From an uncultured Desulfomonile sp. (lineage in GTDB: Bacteria; Desulfobacterota; Desulfomonilia; Desulfomonilales; Desulfomonilaceae): a DNA stretch of 8,607 nucleotides. The notes below the pieces were generated by a model, which was not told the origin of the DNA, ran no database searches, and was given only the letters and a program-made list of their open reading frames with translations. This document shows positions 609-8,439 of this stretch, piece after piece. The DNA is taken from positions 1 through 8,607 of the forward strand of contig CALDNG010000361.1 of NCBI GenBank assembly GCA_937915285.1, given 5' to 3'. Position 1 is the first letter of the stretch, and each line of letters opens with the position of its first letter. The translations under genes and the position numbers were made by a program.

Positions 609-1031
609 ATGTATAGGAAACTGTTGGTCGCTTATGATGGTTCCGAAGGGTCTCGAAAGGCCTTGAAGAGGGCGGTCCAGATTGCGCTGGCTTTTGGCGC
701 GGAACTCCATTCCATCTCCGTGGAGGTGGATCTTCCCCAATATGTGGCTACTGTAGGCGAGTTCGAGGAGGTCAAGGCTCAAAAGGACGCATATTTTAAC
801 CAACTGACAGGTGAGGCCGTTGAATCAGCCAGAGTTGAAGGAATCAGCCTGATCCCTCATGTTGTAGCGGGGCATGCAGTGGACAGCATTGTTGATTTCT
901 GCAAGGAGGGTGAGTTTGACCTGCTTATAACGGGCTTTACAGGTCATTCCAGGATTTATGAGAGGATATGGGGTGGTATATCCAGAAACCTGGCTCGTTT
1001 TAGCCCTTGCTCGGTCCTGATCGAAAAATAG
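609..1031 (+). CDS. Universal stress protein, UspA family (single domain)
   Basis: A 140-residue single-domain universal stress protein, the normal length for the family. It opens with MYRKLLVAYDGSEGS, the standard first strand and loop with the conserved Asp (D10). Near the end, residues 109-123 match the ATP-binding signature G-x2-G-x9-G-(S/T) (G109, G112, G122), except that position 123 is Gly. The final strand is SPCSVLIEK. It is probably a cytoplasmic dimer that may bind ATP weakly; altered phosphate-loop residues can also mark members that do not bind ATP. An in-frame ATG at 558 would overlap the antiporter gene, but the GGAG before 609 and family alignment favour the shorter form. Its position right behind a CPA2 antiporter suggests that it modulates the transporter or is co-expressed with it under stress; that is inference. 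Confidence 0.93.
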   Translation: MYRKLLVAYDGSEGSRKALKRAVQIALAFGAELHSISVEVDLPQYVATVGEFEEVKAQKDAYFNQLTGEAVESARVEGISLIPHVVAGHAVDSIVDFCKEGEFDLLITGFTGHSRIYERIWGGISRNLARFSPCSVLIEK

Positions 1032-1100
1032 TCTTCAGAAATCAAATTGGTTACAAAAAGAGCAAATCTGGCGTAAACTATTTAGTCAGGACTGTATGAG

Positions 1101-1128
1101 TATACAAGCGCCTCGCTTTTCATAAAAT
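1101..1128 (+). promoter_or_regulatory. Weak candidate sigma-70-type promoter before the chimeric gene
   Basis: TATACA (1101-1106) and TAAAAT (1123-1128) are separated by 16 bases, in an AT-rich stretch of the 180-base gap before the large gene. The -10 matches 5 of 6 bases and the -35 only 4 of 6. No sigma-54 (GG-N10-GC) element was found in the gap. This is a tentative call by eye. Confidence 0.25.
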
Positions 1129-1197
1129 ATTCATGGAATGTTTTACATCACAGTTGTGGGGATAGTTCGAGTTAATTCAGTCATCCTGTTAAATTCC

Positions 1198-1203
1198 GGA
1201 GGA
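1198..1203 (+). promoter_or_regulatory. Strong ribosome binding site fixing the start of the chimeric gene
   Basis: GGAGGA lies 8 bases before ATG 1212. The upstream in-frame TTG at 1206 is only 2 bases from this site, too close to be used. Confidence 0.75.
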
Positions 1204-1211
1204 CGTTGATA

Positions 1212-3839
1212 ATGGCTGAGCCTCTGCGCAGAGATTCGTTCGCTATGGACGAAAAGGACCGGCTCCCGAGTTCCTTAAGACGAATGGTTTACAACCAGGA
1301 TTCGATAAAAACCTACCCTCCGGGGGCCACCATAATGGGGCGAAGTTCCGACACGGACAGGATCATTTACATCATGTCCGGATCAGCGAGTGTGGTGCTT
1401 CGTGATGAGGACAAGGAAAAAGTTTCAGTAGATGACCTTGGTCCTGGAGATATCTTTGGTGGAATAGAGTTCTTTACCGGTGTGCCTTGGCAGCTCGACT
1501 CCGAATTAATTGCTGAGGAAAAAACTGAGGTGATTGAAATTGATTCGGTTTCTTTTGAATCCTTATTGCGGGAAGATCCGGATTTCATTGTCGGACTAGT
1601 TAAGAGCCTCGTCAGAAAGCTTTTCGCTCAACGCCGTAACATGTTCAGAAGTAAGCTGAAAAGGCGAGCGCTTCATTCTTTGATCAGTAGTGAGGAGCAT
1701 ATATTTCCTGATTATGTGGTTGGAGATTACGTCCGCAAGAACATTTCATCCAGGCTTGCTGAATTGGCTGCCAGTGATGGTCCAGCCCTTATAATTGGGG
1801 AAAGCGGCGTAGGTAAGGAAGTTCTGGCGCACAGGCTTTTCAAGCAGAGCAGACACGGCAAAGAAGTATTTCTTATTGTAGACCTTAACAAAACTGAGAA
1901 TCACACTCCTTTTAGCTCCCCCAAACCAGGGCGAAAAGCGTCTCCAGAGGAGATTACCGAACAGCAGTTGAAATTGTTTTTTGGTCACGAGGAGCCGGGA
2001 GCGGACGGTGGCACAAGGGAGACTCCGGGTTATTTCGAACTCACTGATGACGGTACCCTACTGGTTAGAGGTGTCGAGAGACTGACTCCGATAGTTCAGA
2101 TGAAATTGCTGGAAGCCGTTGTTACCGAGACTTTCCGTCGGGTTGACGGTGTCAGGACGCTAAAATCAAAGGTCAGGCTGATTGCGACCACGCGACTGGA
2201 CATCTCAGAAATCACCCTTGAGAGTCATCCATTGATGTATGCCCTGCTGGACCGTTCGGTGAGTATCCCGCCACTCAGGAACCGAAGAAAAGAAATTCCG
2301 ATTCTTGCCAGACATTACCTTAAAAAATACACCAATGAACTGGGGAGAAACGTCGGGGAGTTGCAGGAAGAGACTCTGAGCACTTTACTCAATTATTCAT
2401 GGCCCGGCAACGACCTGGAACTTTCCAATTCCTTGAAGAGGGCGATACTGGTTTGCGAGAGGGGAGTCCTTCGTCCACAGGACATATATTTTGATCTCAA
2501 AAGGGTTGAGGACAAATGGAAATTCAACCTGCTGAGATTCAGCTACATCAAGAAGGCTTTACTGAGCCCCTTGTATCCGGCGGTGTTGCAGAGCGCTGCG
2601 GTTCCCTTTTTCTTCATAATACTGGTTTTCCTATTCCTTGGGCCTCAGGACCCCATGAAGAACCCTGCGGCGCTGGTCGCATGGGCAATAGGCTGGCCGA
2701 TAATGATAATCGGCGCCCTGTTTTGGGCCAGATTCTGGTGCTCTCTGTGCCCAATAGGCGTCATTGCGGCTCTATCGAAAAAGGTTTTATCTCTTGAACG
2801 ACCATTTCCCGCATTTCTAAAACGGAATTCAGACTTCTTGATTGCAGGAGCAGTGCTTTTTGTCATCTGGTTTGAAACTGCGACAGCGATCAGGAACTCC
2901 CCTCTTAATTTGGGCTTGCTGTTGCTCACCATGCTCCTATCCGCAATACTGGTTTCAATGGTTTACGAGAGGCAGACCTGGTGTCTTTACCTTTGCGGAT
3001 TGGGAGGCATGGTCGGAGTTTTGTCCAAGACCTCGTTTGTTGAATTGCGCGCCAACGGCAATGTCTGTATTTCAGAGTGTTCATCCAATGAGTGTTACCT
3101 TGGGACTTCCGAGCGCGCAGGTTGCCCGTTTGGTCATGCAGGTCCAAGGCTGAGAAGTAACAGGGTGTGCAAGGTTTGTGGGCAATGCCTGAAGAATTGT
3201 CCTCACGGCGCGATATCTCTAAACCTGAGGGCTCCAGGCCAGGAAATTTGGCAACATTCCCAGCGTCATGCGGGTACGGCCTTCCTGGTTTTGGGAATGA
3301 TCGGCGGCCTATTCAGTGAAATGGTTTCCAAAATGCCTGAATACCAGATCCTGACGTCCTGGATGCCATTCCCGACAGTCGTAAACTTCAGCATAGTCTT
3401 CCTGGCAATTCTTGCATGTATCAATACCCTTATGATCCTGGCCTCCCTGATTTCAAGGAGATACTGTGGTGACACCCTGAGACAGAACTTTGCTAGATTC
3501 GGTCTTGCGATGCTGCCTTTAACCTTGGGGTCTTTCACGGCTTTTCACATATATTATCTGATCAACCTTGGTGTTCACATTCCTATTCTAATCAGCAAGT
3601 ACTTTGACATAGAAGCTCTCAACACACTTATAATTACAGTCCCACCGGACGTTACCTTCTATTTGCAGCAGACAGTGATCTGGGGCTGCCTTGCGTGGAC
3701 GCTTTTGACTATTTACCGTCTGGGTTTGTGGACTCAAAAATCGGCTCTAAACACACTGTGTATTGTTGGGCCTCATGCTGTTGTCGCTATCGTGATTGCC
3801 CTTGTGATGAGCGAAGCAATAACCAATTTCTTCCATTGA
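1212..3839 (+). CDS. Membrane chimera: Crp-like sensor + degenerate sigma-54-activator AAA+ domain + NosR/NapH-like polyferredoxin
   Basis: An 875-residue protein with three modules. Residues ~34-138 form a Crp/cNMP-binding fold, but the phosphate-binding cassette is altered (FGGIEFF, no Arg). Residues ~168-425 align with the AAA+ domain of sigma-54 activators: Walker A GESGVGKE is intact (196-203), IPPLRNRRKEIPILA and SWPGN are recognisable. However, the Walker B acidic pair reads Arg-Gly, the GAFTGA loop is absent, and the arginine fingers and sensor II Arg are lost. No helix-turn-helix follows. From ~459 on there are about nine membrane helices. A CxxCP (C510, C513) follows helix 2 and a CxxxCG (C591, C595) follows helix 4. 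A soluble loop has C619, C623, C628, C638 and a ferredoxin motif C653-x2-C656-x2-C659-x3-C663-P. The positions put all cysteine sites on the cytoplasmic side with the N-terminal domains. It probably moves or senses electrons at the membrane and is unlikely to activate sigma-54 transcription. The gene stands alone between two gaps. Function and partner are unknown. Confidence 0.93.
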   Translation: MAEPLRRDSFAMDEKDRLPSSLRRMVYNQDSIKTYPPGATIMGRSSDTDRIIYIMSGSASVVLRDEDKEKVSVDDLGPGDIFGGIEFFTGVPWQLDSELIAEEKTEVIEIDSVSFESLLREDPDFIVGLVKSLVRKLFAQRRNMFRSKLKRRALHSLISSEEHIFPDYVVGDYVRKNISSRLAELAASDGPALIIGESGVGKEVLAHRLFKQSRHGKEVFLIVDLNKTENHTPFSSPKPGRKASPEEITEQQLKLFFGHEEPGADGGTRETPGYFELTDDGTLLVRGVERLTPIVQMKLLEAVVTETFRRVDGVRTLKSKVRLIATTRLDISEITLESHPLMYALLDRSVSIPPLRNRRKEIPILARHYLKKYTNELGRNVGELQEETLSTLLNYSWPGNDLELSNSLKRAILVCERGVLRPQDIYFDLKRVEDKWKFNLLRFSYIKKALLSPLYPAVLQSAAVPFFFIILVFLFLGPQDPMKNPAALVAWAIGWPIMIIGALFWARFWCSLCPIGVIAALSKKVLSLERPFPAFLKRNSDFLIAGAVLFVIWFETATAIRNSPLNLGLLLLTMLLSAILVSMVYERQTWCLYLCGLGGMVGVLSKTSFVELRANGNVCISECSSNECYLGTSERAGCPFGHAGPRLRSNRVCKVCGQCLKNCPHGAISLNLRAPGQEIWQHSQRHAGTAFLVLGMIGGLFSEMVSKMPEYQILTSWMPFPTVVNFSIVFLAILACINTLMILASLISRRYCGDTLRQNFARFGLAMLPLTLGSFTAFHIYYLINLGVHIPILISKYFDIEALNTLIITVPPDVTFYLQQTVIWGCLAWTLLTIYRLGLWTQKSALNTLCIVGPHAVVAIVIALVMSEAITNFFH

Positions 3840-3848
3840 TGCTATAAT
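3840..3848 (+). promoter_or_regulatory. Extended -10 promoter element for the polyprenyl synthase-bamD unit
   Basis: TGCTATAAT fits the extended -10 consensus TGnTATAAT exactly. It begins one base after the stop codon of the chimeric gene. No convincing -35 lies at 16-18 bases, as is usual for extended -10 promoters. Transcription would begin near 3855, giving a leader of roughly 95 bases. Confidence 0.45.
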
Positions 3849-3948
3849 GCAAACAGAAAATCAGCAAACTCACGAGATCGACCTTGATTTGAAGCTTTAG
3901 TTTTGAACCATCTGTTGGAAGGGAGTTGCTGGGAATAACCAAAAAATT

Positions 3949-4929
3949 TTGCCGGAGTCGAGATTGGATTTACTTGATTCGATAAGACTTACAATGGAGC
4001 GTCTTGAGGGGGAACTCATTGATCAGCTAAAAAGCAGAGTTCCAGTAGCTTTCGAGATCGGCGCTCACATAATGAACAGTGGTGGCAAGCGAATTCGACC
4101 GCAGCTATGCGTCATATCGGCCAGGATGGGTGGTTACGAGGGCCTTGATTCAATAAGACTCTCAGGGGCTATAGAGTGCATACACACCGCTACCTTGTTA
4201 CACGATGATGTGGTGGATATGGCCGACACAAGACGAGGAAGACCGTCGGCAAACACGCTCTGGTCTAATGAAATGTGTGTCCTCGGGGGAGATTTCATAC
4301 TTGCCAAGGCCTTCTCCGCATTAACATCTATTGGGAATCTCAGGATATTACAAATTGTTTCAAAGGCGACGGAAAGGCTCAGCGAGGGTGAGCTTTTTCA
4401 GATGATGAATATCGGGAACACAGACTTGTCGGAGGCCAGCTATTTCCAGGTGATAGCAGACAAGACGGCGGTTTTGATGGAGGCGGCTTGCAGGGGTGGC
4501 GCCATTCTGGGCAATCTGGATCCTGAGAAAGAAGACGCTTTGGCGTCGTTTGGGTTCAATCTGGGGATGGCTTTTCAGGTGACGGATGATGTAATTGATT
4601 ATCGTTCTGACAAAGAGACTATGGGTAAGACCCCCGGAAAGGATATAACAGAAGGCAAATTGACGCTCCCCCTGATTTTGGCTTTGAAGAATGCCTCCGA
4701 GAGTGAAAGGGCCTGGATCAGGTCCGTCATAGACTCAAGGCAAATCTCCTCAGATGACCTGATGAGGCTTCGGGATTTTCTGGACACATCAGGCGGTATT
4801 TCTGAGGCGCTTGCTATTTCAAGAAAATATCTTGAAGATGCGGTCCACAAGATTTCAATCTTTCCGGATTCTGAGGAGAAAAGGGCCCTGATCAAGTTAT
4901 CGGATCGGATACTACACAGAACCTATTAA
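3949..4929 (+). CDS. ispB: Long-chain all-trans polyprenyl diphosphate synthase (IspB/HepT-like)
   Basis: A 326-residue trans-isoprenyl diphosphate synthase, close to the usual ~320. It adds isopentenyl diphosphate units to an allylic primer to build the side chain of a respiratory quinone. Visible motifs: GGKRIRP (45-51, substrate binding), first aspartate-rich motif DDVVD (86-90) followed by DTRRGRPSAN, second motif DDVID (213-217) and K-x2-GKD (227-232). All catalytic Asp, Lys and Arg residues are present. The fifth residue before the first motif is Ala81 rather than Phe or Tyr, in the segment IHTATLLHDD, which is the pattern of long-chain (C30-C50) enzymes. In an anaerobe the product probably serves menaquinone; exact chain length cannot be read. 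The start is uncertain: TTG 3949 lacks a well-spaced ribosome site, while TTG 3964 has CGGAG six bases upstream and would give 321 residues. bamD follows 74 bases later. The symbol is by similarity. Confidence 0.93.
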   Translation: MPESRLDLLDSIRLTMERLEGELIDQLKSRVPVAFEIGAHIMNSGGKRIRPQLCVISARMGGYEGLDSIRLSGAIECIHTATLLHDDVVDMADTRRGRPSANTLWSNEMCVLGGDFILAKAFSALTSIGNLRILQIVSKATERLSEGELFQMMNIGNTDLSEASYFQVIADKTAVLMEAACRGGAILGNLDPEKEDALASFGFNLGMAFQVTDDVIDYRSDKETMGKTPGKDITEGKLTLPLILALKNASESERAWIRSVIDSRQISSDDLMRLRDFLDTSGGISEALAISRKYLEDAVHKISIFPDSEEKRALIKLSDRILHRTY

Positions 4930-4988
4930 GGGTCCTGTTGACATAATCGTTCATGATTGCTAAAGGGTTTTCAATGTTTAGGCCGACT

Positions 4989-4994
4989 AAGGGG
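4989..4994 (+). promoter_or_regulatory. Ribosome binding site favouring a GTG start for the BamD-like lipoprotein
   Basis: AAGGGG lies 9 bases before GTG 5004. Translation from there gives a compact lipoprotein signal peptide. A competing site AAAGGG (4962-4967) lies 6 bases before ATG 4974 and would add ten residues, partly charged, before the hydrophobic core. Confidence 0.5.
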
Positions 4995-5003
4995 CGCCAT
5001 GAA

Positions 5004-5657
5004 GTGAAATCAAGACTTCTGCTAATATCTATTGTTTTTATTACTCTGGCTTTGGCGGGATGTCCATCCGTCTGGAACATAGATGCGAAGGATACAAAGG
5101 AATCTCCAGAGGAAGCTTACAAGCAGGCTCAGGATCAGTTGAAGGACAAGAAGTACTTCCAGGCTATTGAAAGTCTGGAAAAACTCAAGTCCGCCTATCC
5201 TGATTTCAAGGAAATGCCTCAGGTTTATCTCAAGATAGCGGATGCCTTTTTCGATGAAGGCTCCTACGACAAGGCCATAGCAAGGTATCTCCAGTTCCTG
5301 GAGTTATATCCTAACAATGAGGACGTCCCGAGGGCTAAATACCAGATCGGGATGGCTTATTTCAGCCAGATAAAAGGCACGGACCTGGACAACTCGGTTG
5401 TCAGGAGCGCTATACAGGCCTTCAAGGTAGTGACAGAACTTCAGGAGCCCGGTGAGTGGGGCAAAAAGGCTGAAGAAAAAATAAACGAATGCAAGAAGAA
5501 ACTTGCGGAGAAAGAGATTTACAAGGCCAACACGTATATAAGCCTCGGCAATTACAAGGCTGCGCGTCTTGCCGCCCAAAGAGTGCTGGATGATTACCCT
5601 AAACTGGGTTTTGACGATGTTGCCCAGGACTTGATCAAAAAATACAAAAACCGCTGA
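5004..5657 (+). CDS. bamD: Outer membrane assembly lipoprotein, BamD (ComL/YfiO) family
   Basis: From GTG 5004 the protein has 217 residues, slightly shorter than typical BamD (~245). It begins with MKSR, a hydrophobic core and the lipobox LALAGC, with Cys20 the acylated residue after signal peptidase II cleavage. The residue after Cys is Pro, not the Asp inner-membrane retention signal, so sorting to the outer membrane is expected. The mature part is a run of TPR-like helix pairs: AYKQAQDQLKDKKYFQAIE, then VYLKIADAFFDEGSYDKAIA with YLQFLELYPNNEDVPRAKY, the hallmark segment of BamD, and a last repeat around NTYISLGNYKAARLAAQRV. BamD works with BamA to insert beta-barrel proteins. In-frame ATGs at 4953 and 4974 are alternative starts with less typical signal peptides. 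Related tetratricopeptide lipoproteins such as YbgF/CpoB are less likely because of the short N-terminal region and repeat pattern. It is probably transcribed with the upstream synthase. Confidence 0.88.
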   Translation: MKSRLLLISIVFITLALAGCPSVWNIDAKDTKESPEEAYKQAQDQLKDKKYFQAIESLEKLKSAYPDFKEMPQVYLKIADAFFDEGSYDKAIARYLQFLELYPNNEDVPRAKYQIGMAYFSQIKGTDLDNSVVRSAIQAFKVVTELQEPGEWGKKAEEKINECKKKLAEKEIYKANTYISLGNYKAARLAAQRVLDDYPKLGFDDVAQDLIKKYKNR

Positions 5658-5662
5658 TACGA

Positions 5663-5686
5663 GGCCGGGTCAGCGCTGACCCGGCC
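5663..5686. terminator. Perfect 24-base palindrome between convergent genes; probable bidirectional hairpin
   Basis: The half-site GGCCGGGTCAGC is followed directly by its exact reverse complement GCTGACCCGGCC. As RNA it would fold into a GC-rich stem of about 10 base pairs with a 4-base loop on either strand. It starts 6 bases after the bamD stop and 48 bases past the end of the convergent UDP-glucose dehydrogenase gene. No U-run follows directly on the plus strand; on the minus strand a TTTTT comes about 12 bases later. It may therefore act as a weak or Rho-assisted terminator or as an RNA end-stabilising hairpin rather than a classical intrinsic terminator. Confidence 0.65.
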
Positions 5687-5733
5687 CAATTCCCACAAAA
5701 CCATTCTGCGATCATTGAACAGGACTCTAACGA

Positions 5734-7110
5734 TTAGGCAAGCCTGGACAAAGGTGGACGCCCAATCCGGTGAACTGAAAAGCCTATTTCATATAGCTTC
5801 TGGTGATCCAGAATGTTCCTGCCGTCAAAAATAAAGGCCGGTTTTTCCATTTTTTCAAAAATGGCTGAATAGTCATAATCCCTGAATTCAGCCCAATCAG
5901 TAGCTATGATGATGGCATGGGCTCCATCAGCCGCTGAAACAGGGCTGTGCTCAACACTAAACCGCCCTTCGTAATCTACCAGTTCCGGAGTTATTCCCTC
6001 ACTAGCTTTGGGATCATAAATGGACAGGACAGCCCTTTCATCCATCAGTGATTGGGCTATGGATATGGCAGGCGATTCCCTGGTGTCACCGGTGTCCGCT
6101 TTGAAGGCAAATCCGAATAATGCGATCTTTTTCCCTGCAACCGTGTTGAACATGCTGTTTACTATGATCCTGACAAATCTGTCCTGCTGATAGCTGTTGA
6201 TTTCAACTACCTGCTCCCAGTATCTGGAGACCTCTGTCAGGCCATAAGTCTCCGCTATGTATGCCAGATTCAGGATGTCCTTTTTGAAGCAAGATCCTCC
6301 AAATCCTACCCCGGCCTTCAGGAATTTCGGGCCAATCCTGCTGTCCATCCCTATGGCCCTGGAAACCTCCTCTATGTCAGCATTGGTTTTTTCACATAGA
6401 GCGGAAATCGTGTTGATTGATGAAACCCTCTGGGCCAGAAAGGCGTTTGCGACTAGCTTTGACAGTTCACTTGACCAGACATTGGAGGTGATGATCTTTT
6501 CTCTTGGTGTCCAATGCGCATAGATTTCTACAATCTGTTCGAGAGCATTTTGTCCTGAATCGGTGTTCCTGGCGCCTACCAGTATTCGATCAGGGCTCTC
6601 CAGGTCCGCTATGGCCGTTCCCTCGGCAAGGAACTCCGGGTTTGACAGGACGTCGAAGTGTATGCCCTTTTCATTGGAATTAAGTATTCTTTCCATGGCA
6701 GCCGCGGTCCTGACGGGGAGTGTGCTCTTCTCAACGACTATTTTTCCTGTTGAACTGTTTTTAAGTATCTGCCTGGCGGTTTTCTCCCAGTATTGAAGGT
6801 CGGCCGCCTTTCCAGCGCCCTGACCGAAGGTCTTGGTTGGGGTGTTTACACTTACGAATATGATGTCAGAGGATTCGATGTGGGAATCGACATCCGTACT
6901 GAAAAAGAGATTCCTGTTTCTTGTAGCAAAAACTACCTCGTCCAGGCCCGGCTCATAAATAGGTAACTTGTCGGATTGCCACTGGGCTATTCTCTTAGGA
7001 TTGATGTCTACGACTACAACCTTATATTCCGGACAATGTTTGGCTATAACAGCCATCGTAGGGCCGCCCACATATCCAGCCCCTATGCAGAGAATGGTCT
7101 TCCTGAACAT
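5734..7110 (-). CDS. ugd: UDP-glucose 6-dehydrogenase, eukaryote-like subfamily
   Basis: A 458-residue enzyme that oxidises UDP-glucose to UDP-glucuronate with two NAD+, feeding polysaccharide or lipid glycan synthesis. The N-terminal Rossmann fold starts CIGAGYVGGPT (8-18). Catalytic residues are in place: Glu159 and Glu163 in NPEFLAEGTA, Lys218 in SSELSKLVANAF, and the nucleophile Cys274 in GFGGSCFKKD. The C-terminal UDP-binding domain has GFAFKADTGDTRESPA and FDGRNI. Several segments match animal UGDH as I know it rather than common bacterial Ugd: NTPTKTFGQGAGKAADL, SNVWSSELSKLVANAFLAQR and VSSINTISALCE. The start is ATG 7110, with GGAAGG five bases before it; an in-frame GTG at 7116 overlaps that site. 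The histidine kinase gene ends 90 bases upstream on the same strand and could share a transcript. No glycosyltransferase cluster is visible, so the consuming pathway is unknown. Confidence 0.96.
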   Translation of the reverse strand: MFRKTILCIGAGYVGGPTMAVIAKHCPEYKVVVVDINPKRIAQWQSDKLPIYEPGLDEVVFATRNRNLFFSTDVDSHIESSDIIFVSVNTPTKTFGQGAGKAADLQYWEKTARQILKNSSTGKIVVEKSTLPVRTAAAMERILNSNEKGIHFDVLSNPEFLAEGTAIADLESPDRILVGARNTDSGQNALEQIVEIYAHWTPREKIITSNVWSSELSKLVANAFLAQRVSSINTISALCEKTNADIEEVSRAIGMDSRIGPKFLKAGVGFGGSCFKKDILNLAYIAETYGLTEVSRYWEQVVEINSYQQDRFVRIIVNSMFNTVAGKKIALFGFAFKADTGDTRESPAISIAQSLMDERAVLSIYDPKASEGITPELVDYEGRFSVEHSPVSAADGAHAIIIATDWAEFRDYDYSAIFEKMEKPAFIFDGRNILDHQKLYEIGFSVHRIGRPPLSRLA

Positions 7111-7115
7111 TTCCA

Positions 7116-7121
7116 CCTTCC
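7116..7121 (-). promoter_or_regulatory. Ribosome binding site deciding the start of UDP-glucose dehydrogenase
   Basis: On the minus strand GGAAGG lies 5 bases before ATG 7110. The alternative GTG at 7116 begins on its last base and so cannot use it. Confidence 0.5.
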
Positions 7122-7200
7122 GTAGTTCTTATCTTCTGGGTGCATCCCTAAGTCGGACGAGGTTAAAATCTCTTCAGCGACATGAAAGTCATATTGTAAA

Positions 7201-8433
7201 TCATGTTTGATCGTATTTAAACATGGAGCTAACCCCCGTATCCATGGAAGAGACCGATGATGGTTCAAAGTCAAAGCTGAAACAGAAAGTGCAACCTTTG
7301 CCCAGCCCCTCGGACTCCACCCAGATCCTACCACCATCCTCTTCTATGATCCTCTTGAGGATTGCAAGCCCTATTCCTGTGCCTTCAGAGCCCTCATCCA
7401 CCTTCATGAATAACCCGAAAATCTTGCCCTTGTTGTGAGACTCCAATCCTAAGCCGTTGTCACGAACGAAAAATATCTTTGCGTTGTCTTCAATCCTGAA
7501 ACTGATTTCTATGACAGGGGTCTGCTGGTCTCCCATGTACTTGACAGCATTCTCAACAAGATTCTGTAGTATTGTCAGTATCCTGTGTCTTTCTCCGAGA
7601 ATGGTTGGTATAGATTTGTCTATGTTTATTGTCACCCCGCGCTCAGCTATCTTGCCGGCGAGAAGGTCCACGACCTCTGCTGCTATTTCGGCAATAGAGA
7701 TTTCTTCAACAAGTCCGTGCATTGAGCCGGCTCGGGAAAGTTTCAGCAAATCGTCTATTAGTTGTTCCATCCTGGTGGCGGACAGGTTTATTCTTTCGAT
7801 GGTTTTCTGAAGTCGGTCGAAATTTCCCTCCATTGCATCCCTTTGGACCCATTTCATGAGACCCTTTATGGTTATCAATGGACCTCTAAGATCGTGCGAG
7901 ACCGCGAAATTGAGGACTTTTAAATCAGAATTTCTTGATTCAAGTTCAGCGATCAGGCGTTCCCTTTCGTCTTCAATCAGCTTTCGCTGGGTGATGTCCC
8001 TGATCATAGCCATTTTGGAGACTGATCCACATGGATGAAATATCGGAGTGTTGGTGATTGCATAGTGGCGATTGTCTTTGGGACTCAGGACTTCCCAGTT
8101 AACCGTTTCACCGGCAAATACCTGTTCATTAATGCACCATGGGCAAACCGAGTCCCTGTCATGAAGGGCCTTATAGCACTTCTCTCCAAGTGGGTAGGCT
8201 CCTGTTCTGTCTATCAGACGCTGGTTCATGAACTCAATTTCAAAATCAGGTGAGCAAATGTAAATGAAGCCCTCAAAAGCCTTTACCATTGCATCCATCT
8301 GGGCGCGAATCTCTTTACATTCTTCAGATTTTCCTGAAGGCGCTTCGATATTATTTCCGGGCTGAACCAGTCGCTCCTCCACGGGAGCTTTTCCCTCGGA
8401 TGTTGAGGCCACATTAGCAGGATGGTCAGACAT
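7201..8433 (-). CDS. Soluble PAS-domain sensor histidine kinase with a cysteine-rich loop
   Basis: A 410-residue kinase with no membrane segment or signal peptide, so cytoplasmic sensing is expected. Residues 1-45 are a low-complexity polar lead. A PAS domain covers ~47-150, ending in the usual MIRDITQRK. Inside it is an unusual loop, C86-x10-C97-PW-C100 with His91 between, which could bind a metal or a cofactor or react to redox state. A short helix (ERERLIAELESRNSDL) leads to the HisKA dimerisation domain, with the phospho-acceptor His180 in AVSHDLRGPL. The ATPase domain has the N box NLVENAVKY (291-299), G1 DNGLGL (325-330), F box IFGLF (338-342) and G2 GTGIGL (351-356). All catalytic boxes are intact, so it should be active. 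The start is ATG 8433, with GGAG six bases upstream; TTG 8436 is the alternative. No response regulator lies in the window, so it is an orphan here. Target unknown. Confidence 0.95.
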   Translation of the reverse strand: MSDHPANVASTSEGKAPVEERLVQPGNNIEAPSGKSEECKEIRAQMDAMVKAFEGFIYICSPDFEIEFMNQRLIDRTGAYPLGEKCYKALHDRDSVCPWCINEQVFAGETVNWEVLSPKDNRHYAITNTPIFHPCGSVSKMAMIRDITQRKLIEDERERLIAELESRNSDLKVLNFAVSHDLRGPLITIKGLMKWVQRDAMEGNFDRLQKTIERINLSATRMEQLIDDLLKLSRAGSMHGLVEEISIAEIAAEVVDLLAGKIAERGVTINIDKSIPTILGERHRILTILQNLVENAVKYMGDQQTPVIEISFRIEDNAKIFFVRDNGLGLESHNKGKIFGLFMKVDEGSEGTGIGLAILKRIIEEDGGRIWVESEGLGKGCTFCFSFDFEPSSVSSMDTGVSSMFKYDQT

Positions 8434-8439
8434 CAATTT

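Follow-up and report, generated by a model that had tools for sequence, protein, structure and literature searches.

A single uninterrupted reading frame from an uncultured Desulfomonile sp. joins a Crp-like sensor, an AAA+ domain of the sigma-54-activator type and a membrane iron-sulfur module. What does such a protein do: activate transcription, sense redox state, help to assemble an enzyme, or carry electrons under the control of its own head? We addressed this question in the stretch of 8,607 nucleotides that contains the gene (hereafter the window) and among the relatives of the protein.

The gene and its relatives

The following features define the gene and its main parts. Residues are numbered with the TTG at 1206 as residue 1, which gives 877 residues and makes the ATG at 1212 residue 3.

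1198..1203, + strand: GGAGGA, Shine-Dalgarno-like sequence preceding ATG 1212
1212..3839, + strand: fusion gene, 875 residues from ATG 1212, a single open frame; database protein P0001 (875 residues) is identical
1308..1577, + strand: CRP-type cNMP-binding fold, residues 35-124, phosphate-binding place without arginine
1740..2216, + strand: sigma-54-activator-type AAA+ domain, residues 179-337, degenerate
2277..2513, + strand: AAA+ lid (Pfam), residues 358-436, sensor-II arginine missing in most rows
2523..3836, + strand: membrane module, residues 440-877, nine predicted helices (AlphaFold models)

ATG 1212, the start chosen in the first-pass annotation of this DNA, has GGAGGA eight bases upstream of it and is a better start than TTG 1206. 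Pfam searches with the window protein matched cNMP_binding to residues 35-124 (E 1e-12), Sigma54_activat to residues 179-337 (E 9.4e-21, with a score above the cut-off), AAA_lid_14 to residues 358-436 (E 4.1e-17) and Fer4_5 to residues 491-529 (E 1.8e-5). The open frame and these matches bear out the three-part, one-frame chimera that the annotation had described. It had also remarked that no DNA-binding domain stands where Fis would be expected, and this was upheld: no HTH or other DNA-binding family matched the window protein at E≤1, and the membrane module occupies the C-terminal place of Fis. No FMN-binding family matched at E≤1 in the same Pfam search. A promoter and terminator scan of positions 900-4100 gave the same counts as shuffled sequences.

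The possibility that the window copy is a pseudogene was ruled out by its uninterrupted frame, its 85% identity to the copy in another uncultured Desulfomonile (L003) and an NG86 dN of 0.10 between the two; in this comparison dS was saturated, and the YN00 ratio, for the membrane part only, was 0.035.

Two sets of proteins were compared. The first has 121 rows, namely the window protein and P0001-P0120, the best 120 of 1167 protein matches; P0001 being identical to the window protein, one protein is counted twice in it. The second consists of 82 fusions (P0161-P0242, of which P0161 and the protein of locus L068 are one and the same) among the best 120 of 286 matches of a search with remoter members. 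The other proteins listed by that search (best 120 of 286) were ordinary activators or other proteins, and four of them were used as controls. The best 120 of 1167 matches ranged from 100 to 47% identity to the window protein; cNMP, Sigma54_activat and lid domains stand in the precomputed annotation of nearly all of them, and Fer4_5 in that of most. The search with remoter members (best 120 of 286) reached proteins whose names point to Desulfobacterales, Desulfobacula and one acidobacterial MAG. Some fusions carry an extra domain ahead of the core, GAF in L065 and L066 and FHA in L069 and L073.

Conservation of the whole fusion in many genomes, to which the first-pass annotation had looked for support, was indeed found. 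For example, matches at E≤1e-60 were present in 17 of the 18 genomes of the GTDB family of L003's genome, one to four in each and two or more in 14, some of these matches being fragments (two of the three in G205 seem to derive from a single broken copy). Four fusion copies lie on one 6.5 Mb contig. An assembly artefact was ruled out by long single-frame relatives in many independent assemblies, which agree with one another. Nor did close relatives carry the parts as separate genes: they are fused, and stand-alone membrane modules exist in remoter genomes. In two draws from the phylum, the membrane module, fused or alone, was matched in 25/198 and 63/395 genomes. Two local irregularities were seen. 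G205:C101:27210-30006 resembles a broken fusion copy that is split in two, one half containing two stops, and the contig of L002 has Myxococcota in its record lineage, yet its genome (G002) is placed in the GTDB family of G003.

Two candidate nucleotide sites in the head

Three places in the AAA+ domain bear on its activity.

1797..1820, + strand: P-loop, residues 198-205, intact
1977..2033, + strand: place of loop L1, residues 258-276, GAFTGA absent (NtrC1 alignment, row counts)
2052..2078, + strand: place of Walker B, residues 283-291, Asp replaced by Arg288 and Glu by Gly289 (NtrC1 alignment)

The first-pass annotation had called this domain activator-type. The term proved right for the fold and wrong for the function, with GAFTGA, Walker B, the arginine fingers and sensor II all gone. 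A structure search with the model showed that the AAA+ fold of activators is retained, and the P-loop lysine (Lys204) is present in 119 of the 121 rows of the first set (best 120 of 1167). When the window protein was aligned to NtrC1, GHEEPGADGG faced the GAFTGA stretch and GTLLVRGVE faced GTLFLDEIG, while the places of the arginine fingers were a gap and Ala346, the residues listed at position 346 including no arginine. Across the first set (best 120 of 1167), the place of the Walker B aspartate is taken by Arg in 120/121 rows and by Lys in 1/121, that of the glutamate by Gly in 108/121 with Glu in 1/121, and the sensor-II arginine (position 404) is found in 16/121 rows, the window not among them. 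GAFTGA-like patterns were detected in 0/120 proteins of the first set (best 120 of 1167) and in 0/82 of the second (among the best 120 of 286), where the two Walker B places are mostly occupied by Glu (74/82) and Asn (69/82). As a control, the four ordinary activators in the same alignment retain the P-loop, GAFTGA and the Walker B aspartate.

Thus, the fusion shares the AAA+ fold and the P-loop with the sigma-54 activators NtrC1, PspF and NtrC, whereas GAFTGA, the Walker B acids, the arginine fingers, the sensor-II arginine in most rows and the Fis domain are lacking. The motifs counted above serve hydrolysis and sigma-54 contact, and GAFTGA mutants are mostly unable to activate transcription, according to passages of PMC7175178. 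On its sequence, the AAA+ domain is therefore dead as an activator and without what an ATPase needs. Since the P-loop lysine is kept while the Walker B aspartate has become arginine, selection seems to maintain binding without hydrolysis.

These residues bear directly on the database name of several members, "sigma 54-interacting transcriptional regulator", which would make the fusion a membrane-anchored, sigma-54-dependent transcription activator. The name and the Sigma54_activat score above the cut-off speak for this explanation; the residues argue against it, as GAFTGA, the Walker B acids, the arginine fingers and any DNA-binding family are missing and the GAFTGA mutants just cited mostly fail. 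We consider it extremely improbable.

Compared with CRP/FNR regulators, the fusion has the cNMP-binding fold, found both by Pfam and by fold search, but no C-terminal HTH. In CRP, the phosphate-binding arginine marks cNMP binding, and we scored the residue that we take to be the counterpart of CRP Arg82. This arginine is missing in the window's clade and present in the Desulfobacterales clade. It is absent from the window protein and from 118/120 scored rows of the first set (best 120 of 1167); an intact P-loop goes together with its absence in 116/121 rows, the remainder having both sites (2), neither (2) or being unscored (1). The second set (among the best 120 of 286) has the reverse pattern, with the arginine and a broken P-loop in 80/82 members and 2 unscored, so that the arginine is present in 80/80 scored members; the arginine stretch is typically GEMALLTGEPRSAS and the broken P-loop typically GTEK. 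The unscored proteins are P0081, P0222 and P0237. The 17 fusions read at genome loci comprise 13 with the pattern of the first set, 3 with that of the second and one, L134, with both sites; L138 and L139, which have no AAA+ domain and are not fusions, were left out.

Nearly every scored member, as judged from these residues, keeps exactly one nucleotide site. Three changes suffice for this pattern on a tree of 33 rows, and it therefore rests on few events. Strict exclusivity of the two sites was ruled out by the exceptions, two rows with both, two with neither, and L134. The L134 fusion (G271, 4966-7692, - strand), which has both the P-loop and the cNMP arginine, is possibly an ancestral-like two-input form.

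The membrane module and its cysteines

Five features of the membrane module were followed through the alignments.

2739..2753, + strand: CX2CP, C512 and C515
2982..2996, + strand: CX3C, C593 and C597
3066..3200, + strand: ferredoxin-like loop with Cys 621, 625, 630, 640, 655, 658, 661 and 665 (weak Fer4 matches)
3546..3548, + strand: membrane His781
3774..3776, + strand: membrane His857

AlphaFold placed nine long helices at residues 459-478, 487-513, 542-560, 566-586, 689-707, 724-754, 770-788, 814-841 and 847-876, and the membrane part modelled alone gave much the same helices; a plain hydropathy scan flagged only some of the nine. The full-length model had a pTM of 0.57, so the placement of the head relative to the membrane part is not fixed by it. 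The first-pass annotation had predicted a topology with the Fe-S sites on the cytoplasmic side. The distribution of Lys and Arg agrees with this prediction: the Cys-rich loop 588-688 has 11, and loops 479-487 and 563-568 have one apiece, which fits a cytoplasmic position of the Cys-rich loop. The membrane-edge cysteine motifs, described as NosR/NapH-like in that annotation, need a correction: they are CX2CP (512-516) and CX3C without the proline (593-597), not two CX3CP.

In the first set (best 120 of 1167), the 12 cysteines of these motifs are each found in 120 or 121 of 121 rows: C512, C515, C593 and all eight loop cysteines in 121/121, and C597 in 120/121. The eight-cysteine loop is predicted to hold two 4Fe-4S sites. 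All 12 cysteines are also present in 78/82 fusions of the second set (among the best 120 of 286), the other four being frames without the full module. Headless, stand-alone modules of about 450-510 residues that carry these 12 cysteines were observed at L048, L051, L052, L053, L054, L055 and L067; these seven modules from genomes all have the full set (7/7), and among six stand-alone database proteins four have 12 and two have 11. With the cysteines kept in both sets, apart from truncated rows and one change, and in the stand-alone modules, the membrane part emerges as the constant element. This does not hold for all of it: mean pairwise identity was highest in helices 1-4 plus the Fe-S loop (0.68), followed by the lid (0.63), the AAA+ domain (0.51), helices 5-9 (0.46) and the cNMP domain (0.45), so that helices 5-9 vary as much as the cNMP domain does. 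Headless modules are common, as 38 of the 75 membrane-module matches in the 395-genome draw lie in open frames of 444-528 residues, the length of a headless module; gating is thus not required for the module as such.

His781 and His857 are found in 118/121 and 117/121 rows of the first set (best 120 of 1167), with 3 gaps each. In the alignments, they are conserved neither in the second clade nor in most stand-alone modules, which makes a role as ligands of haem (haem b) or of a quinone a matter of speculation. The last histidine of L063 and L064 was placed differently by two alignments.

A PDB fold search with the membrane module gave no significant match, which neither assigns a known fold nor speaks against one; in the full-length fold search, the match list was filled by the AAA+ domain. 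The nearest named family found was NapH (NF007013, TIGR02163), residues 60-237 of the module matching NapH 92-280 of 286 with E 5.7e-8 and a score of 32 (32.2) bits, against a curated NCBIfam cut-off of 234. Both have membrane-edge cysteine motifs and a two-cluster ferredoxin loop. The fusion differs in its motifs, which are CX2CP plus CX3C where NapH has two CX3CP, in four to five additional helices at the C-terminus and in a large N-terminal head, and no napG-like gene is found in the window. In passages of PMC5928378, the CX3CP pair is the motif definition for the NapH/NosR/RdhC membrane module, the membrane segments of NapH are proposed to oxidise quinol, and NosR has two 4Fe-4S motifs with ≤8 Fe found. 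By analogy with this iron content of NosR, the membrane-edge cysteine pairs may be thiols and not a third cluster.

NosR and RdhC/PceC, according to passages of the same paper, share with the fusion a membrane module with cysteine motifs and a large accessory domain. Their accessory domain is FMN-binding and lies outside the membrane, whereas the head of the fusion is predicted to be cytoplasmic and has no FMN-binding family. A further possible role is that the fusion, in the manner of NosR, helps to assemble or maintain a metalloenzyme of the membrane or periplasm, and that its head sets the time of assembly. The homology to NapH would fit, as would the view, stated in PMC5928378, that NosR helps to activate NosZ. 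The lack of an FMN-binding domain counts against it, and no reductase or maturation gene adjoins the window gene or recurs among the compared neighbours, many of which are unlabelled. We regard such a function as quite unlikely.

Neighbouring genes and a proposed mode of action

One neighbour is constant in the window's clade.

3949..4929, + strand: polyprenyl diphosphate synthase gene (Pfam), next downstream of the fusion at a distance of 109 nt

All 8 loci of this clade have the fusion, then polyprenyl diphosphate synthase, then YfiO. An operon link with a quinone-chain gene is not claimed, the remoter copies compared being without polyprenyl diphosphate synthase. At L001, L003, L059, L082, L083 and L084, the window-type fusion has upstream of it a very large gene that resembles those of polyketide or PUFA synthases. 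The window also carries a histidine kinase gene with a weak PAS match (7201-8436, - strand), with no regulator gene adjoining it within the window.

A different arrangement was found in the sister clade (11 loci, support 100/99). In 9/11 of its loci (L056, L057, L058, L060, L091, L093, L094, L095 and L098), a histidine kinase, an NtrC-type regulator and the fusion follow one another on the same strand; the regulator overlaps the fusion or lies ≤170 nt from it in 8/9, and the gap is 1.2 kb in L091. P-loop, GAFTGA (one GSFTGA), Walker B DE, finger and sensor-II motifs are present in 9/9 of these regulators. Because of these neighbours, the main rival explanation makes the fusion a redox sensor in the membrane, with a genuine sigma-54 regulator under its control: the state of quinone or ferredoxin would be sensed by the Fe-S module, and the dead AAA+ domain would dock onto, or poison, a live NtrC-type ring. 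The conserved gene order, the complete activator motifs of the adjoining regulators and the activator fold still present in the dead domain favour this explanation. Against it, the window's own clade is without such a regulator neighbour, the kinase-regulator pair is missing from two sister-clade loci (L092 and L096), L091 has its 1.2 kb gap, and members of the FHA clade have a Ser/Thr kinase instead. On balance we judge it unlikely, though deserving serious weight.

A simple scan for sigma-54 promoters (-24/-12), made both ahead of the fusions and ahead of the kinase-regulator pair, gave nothing that clearly exceeded shuffled sequences, the best shuffle fraction being 0.06. At FHA-type loci, a Ser/Thr kinase follows the fusion in 3/5 (L069, L071 and L072), as established by domain scanning for L069, whose kinase has TPR repeats, and judged by a shared N-terminus for L071 and L072; L070-L072 end at contig ends. 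The presence of signalling genes beside fusions in two subclades supports a regulatory role, and the direction of the signal could equally be the reverse.

The lost ATP-splitting and sigma-54-contact residues and the cysteine-rich membrane part point to a nucleotide-controlled gate and not to a transcription regulator. With a confidence only just short of even, we infer that the fusion is an Fe-S protein of the membrane that transfers electrons and is gated by a head which senses nucleotides without hydrolysing them. The first-pass annotation had proposed a sensor linked to electron flow. That link remains the best reading, as an inferred one; the annotation had missed the dead AAA+ domain and, in the window's clade, the missing phosphate-binding arginine of the cNMP domain.

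How might such a gate work? As the input domains vary and the cysteine set is constant, the Fe-S module would be the output. Two 4Fe-4S clusters would sit in its eight-cysteine loop on the cytoplasmic side, and electrons might pass the two cysteine pairs of the membrane edge on their way to or from the quinone pool, in line with the proposal for NapH. ATP or ADP could occupy the P-loop without being hydrolysed, such that the head would report the adenylate state and do no work. Nucleotide binding would shift the CRP-like domain and the lid, which would open or close the passage of electrons between menaquinol and a partner in the cytoplasm; the bound or free state of the head would pass to the Fe-S loop via the lid, which stands directly before helix 1. 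In the Desulfobacterales clade, a cyclic nucleotide would take this place as the switch of a head of the same kind.

As a broader and more tentative proposal, which we think possible but would not expect to hold in full, these proteins may form an undescribed class of nucleotide-gated electron valves. An activator-type AAA+ domain stripped of its hydrolysis and transcription residues would act as a head that regulates Fe-S proteins of the membrane, as a rule with one nucleotide switch per lineage, either ATP/ADP at the P-loop or a cyclic nucleotide at the CRP-like site. If so, the adenylate or second-messenger level would throttle respiratory electron flow directly in sulfate-reducing and related bacteria, with transcription unchanged. 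With gating by the head, nucleotide signals would act on electron flow in the membrane directly and not through transcription, and the head would be a clear example of an AAA+ domain of the activator type that has become a pseudo-enzyme regulator. A comparison of the two clades would then be a natural experiment, in which the switch of the same device is of the ATP type in one and of the cNMP type in the other.

Literature on the layout and on its parts, judged by titles and the starts of abstracts and mostly outside subscription papers, gave no description of a cNMP, AAA+ and membrane Fe-S fusion and no published function for it, and passages of PMC8238504 mention neither AAA nor cNMP nor sigma. 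Each part belongs to a known kind; their combination, the pattern of losses and the paired switch sites are undescribed as far as the literature searched reaches. A different redox/sigma-54 fusion was observed in P0253, P0255, P0258 and P0272, whose precomputed Pfam domains are Fe-hydrogenase-like and Fe-S (PF02906, PF04060), Sigma54_activat and Fis.
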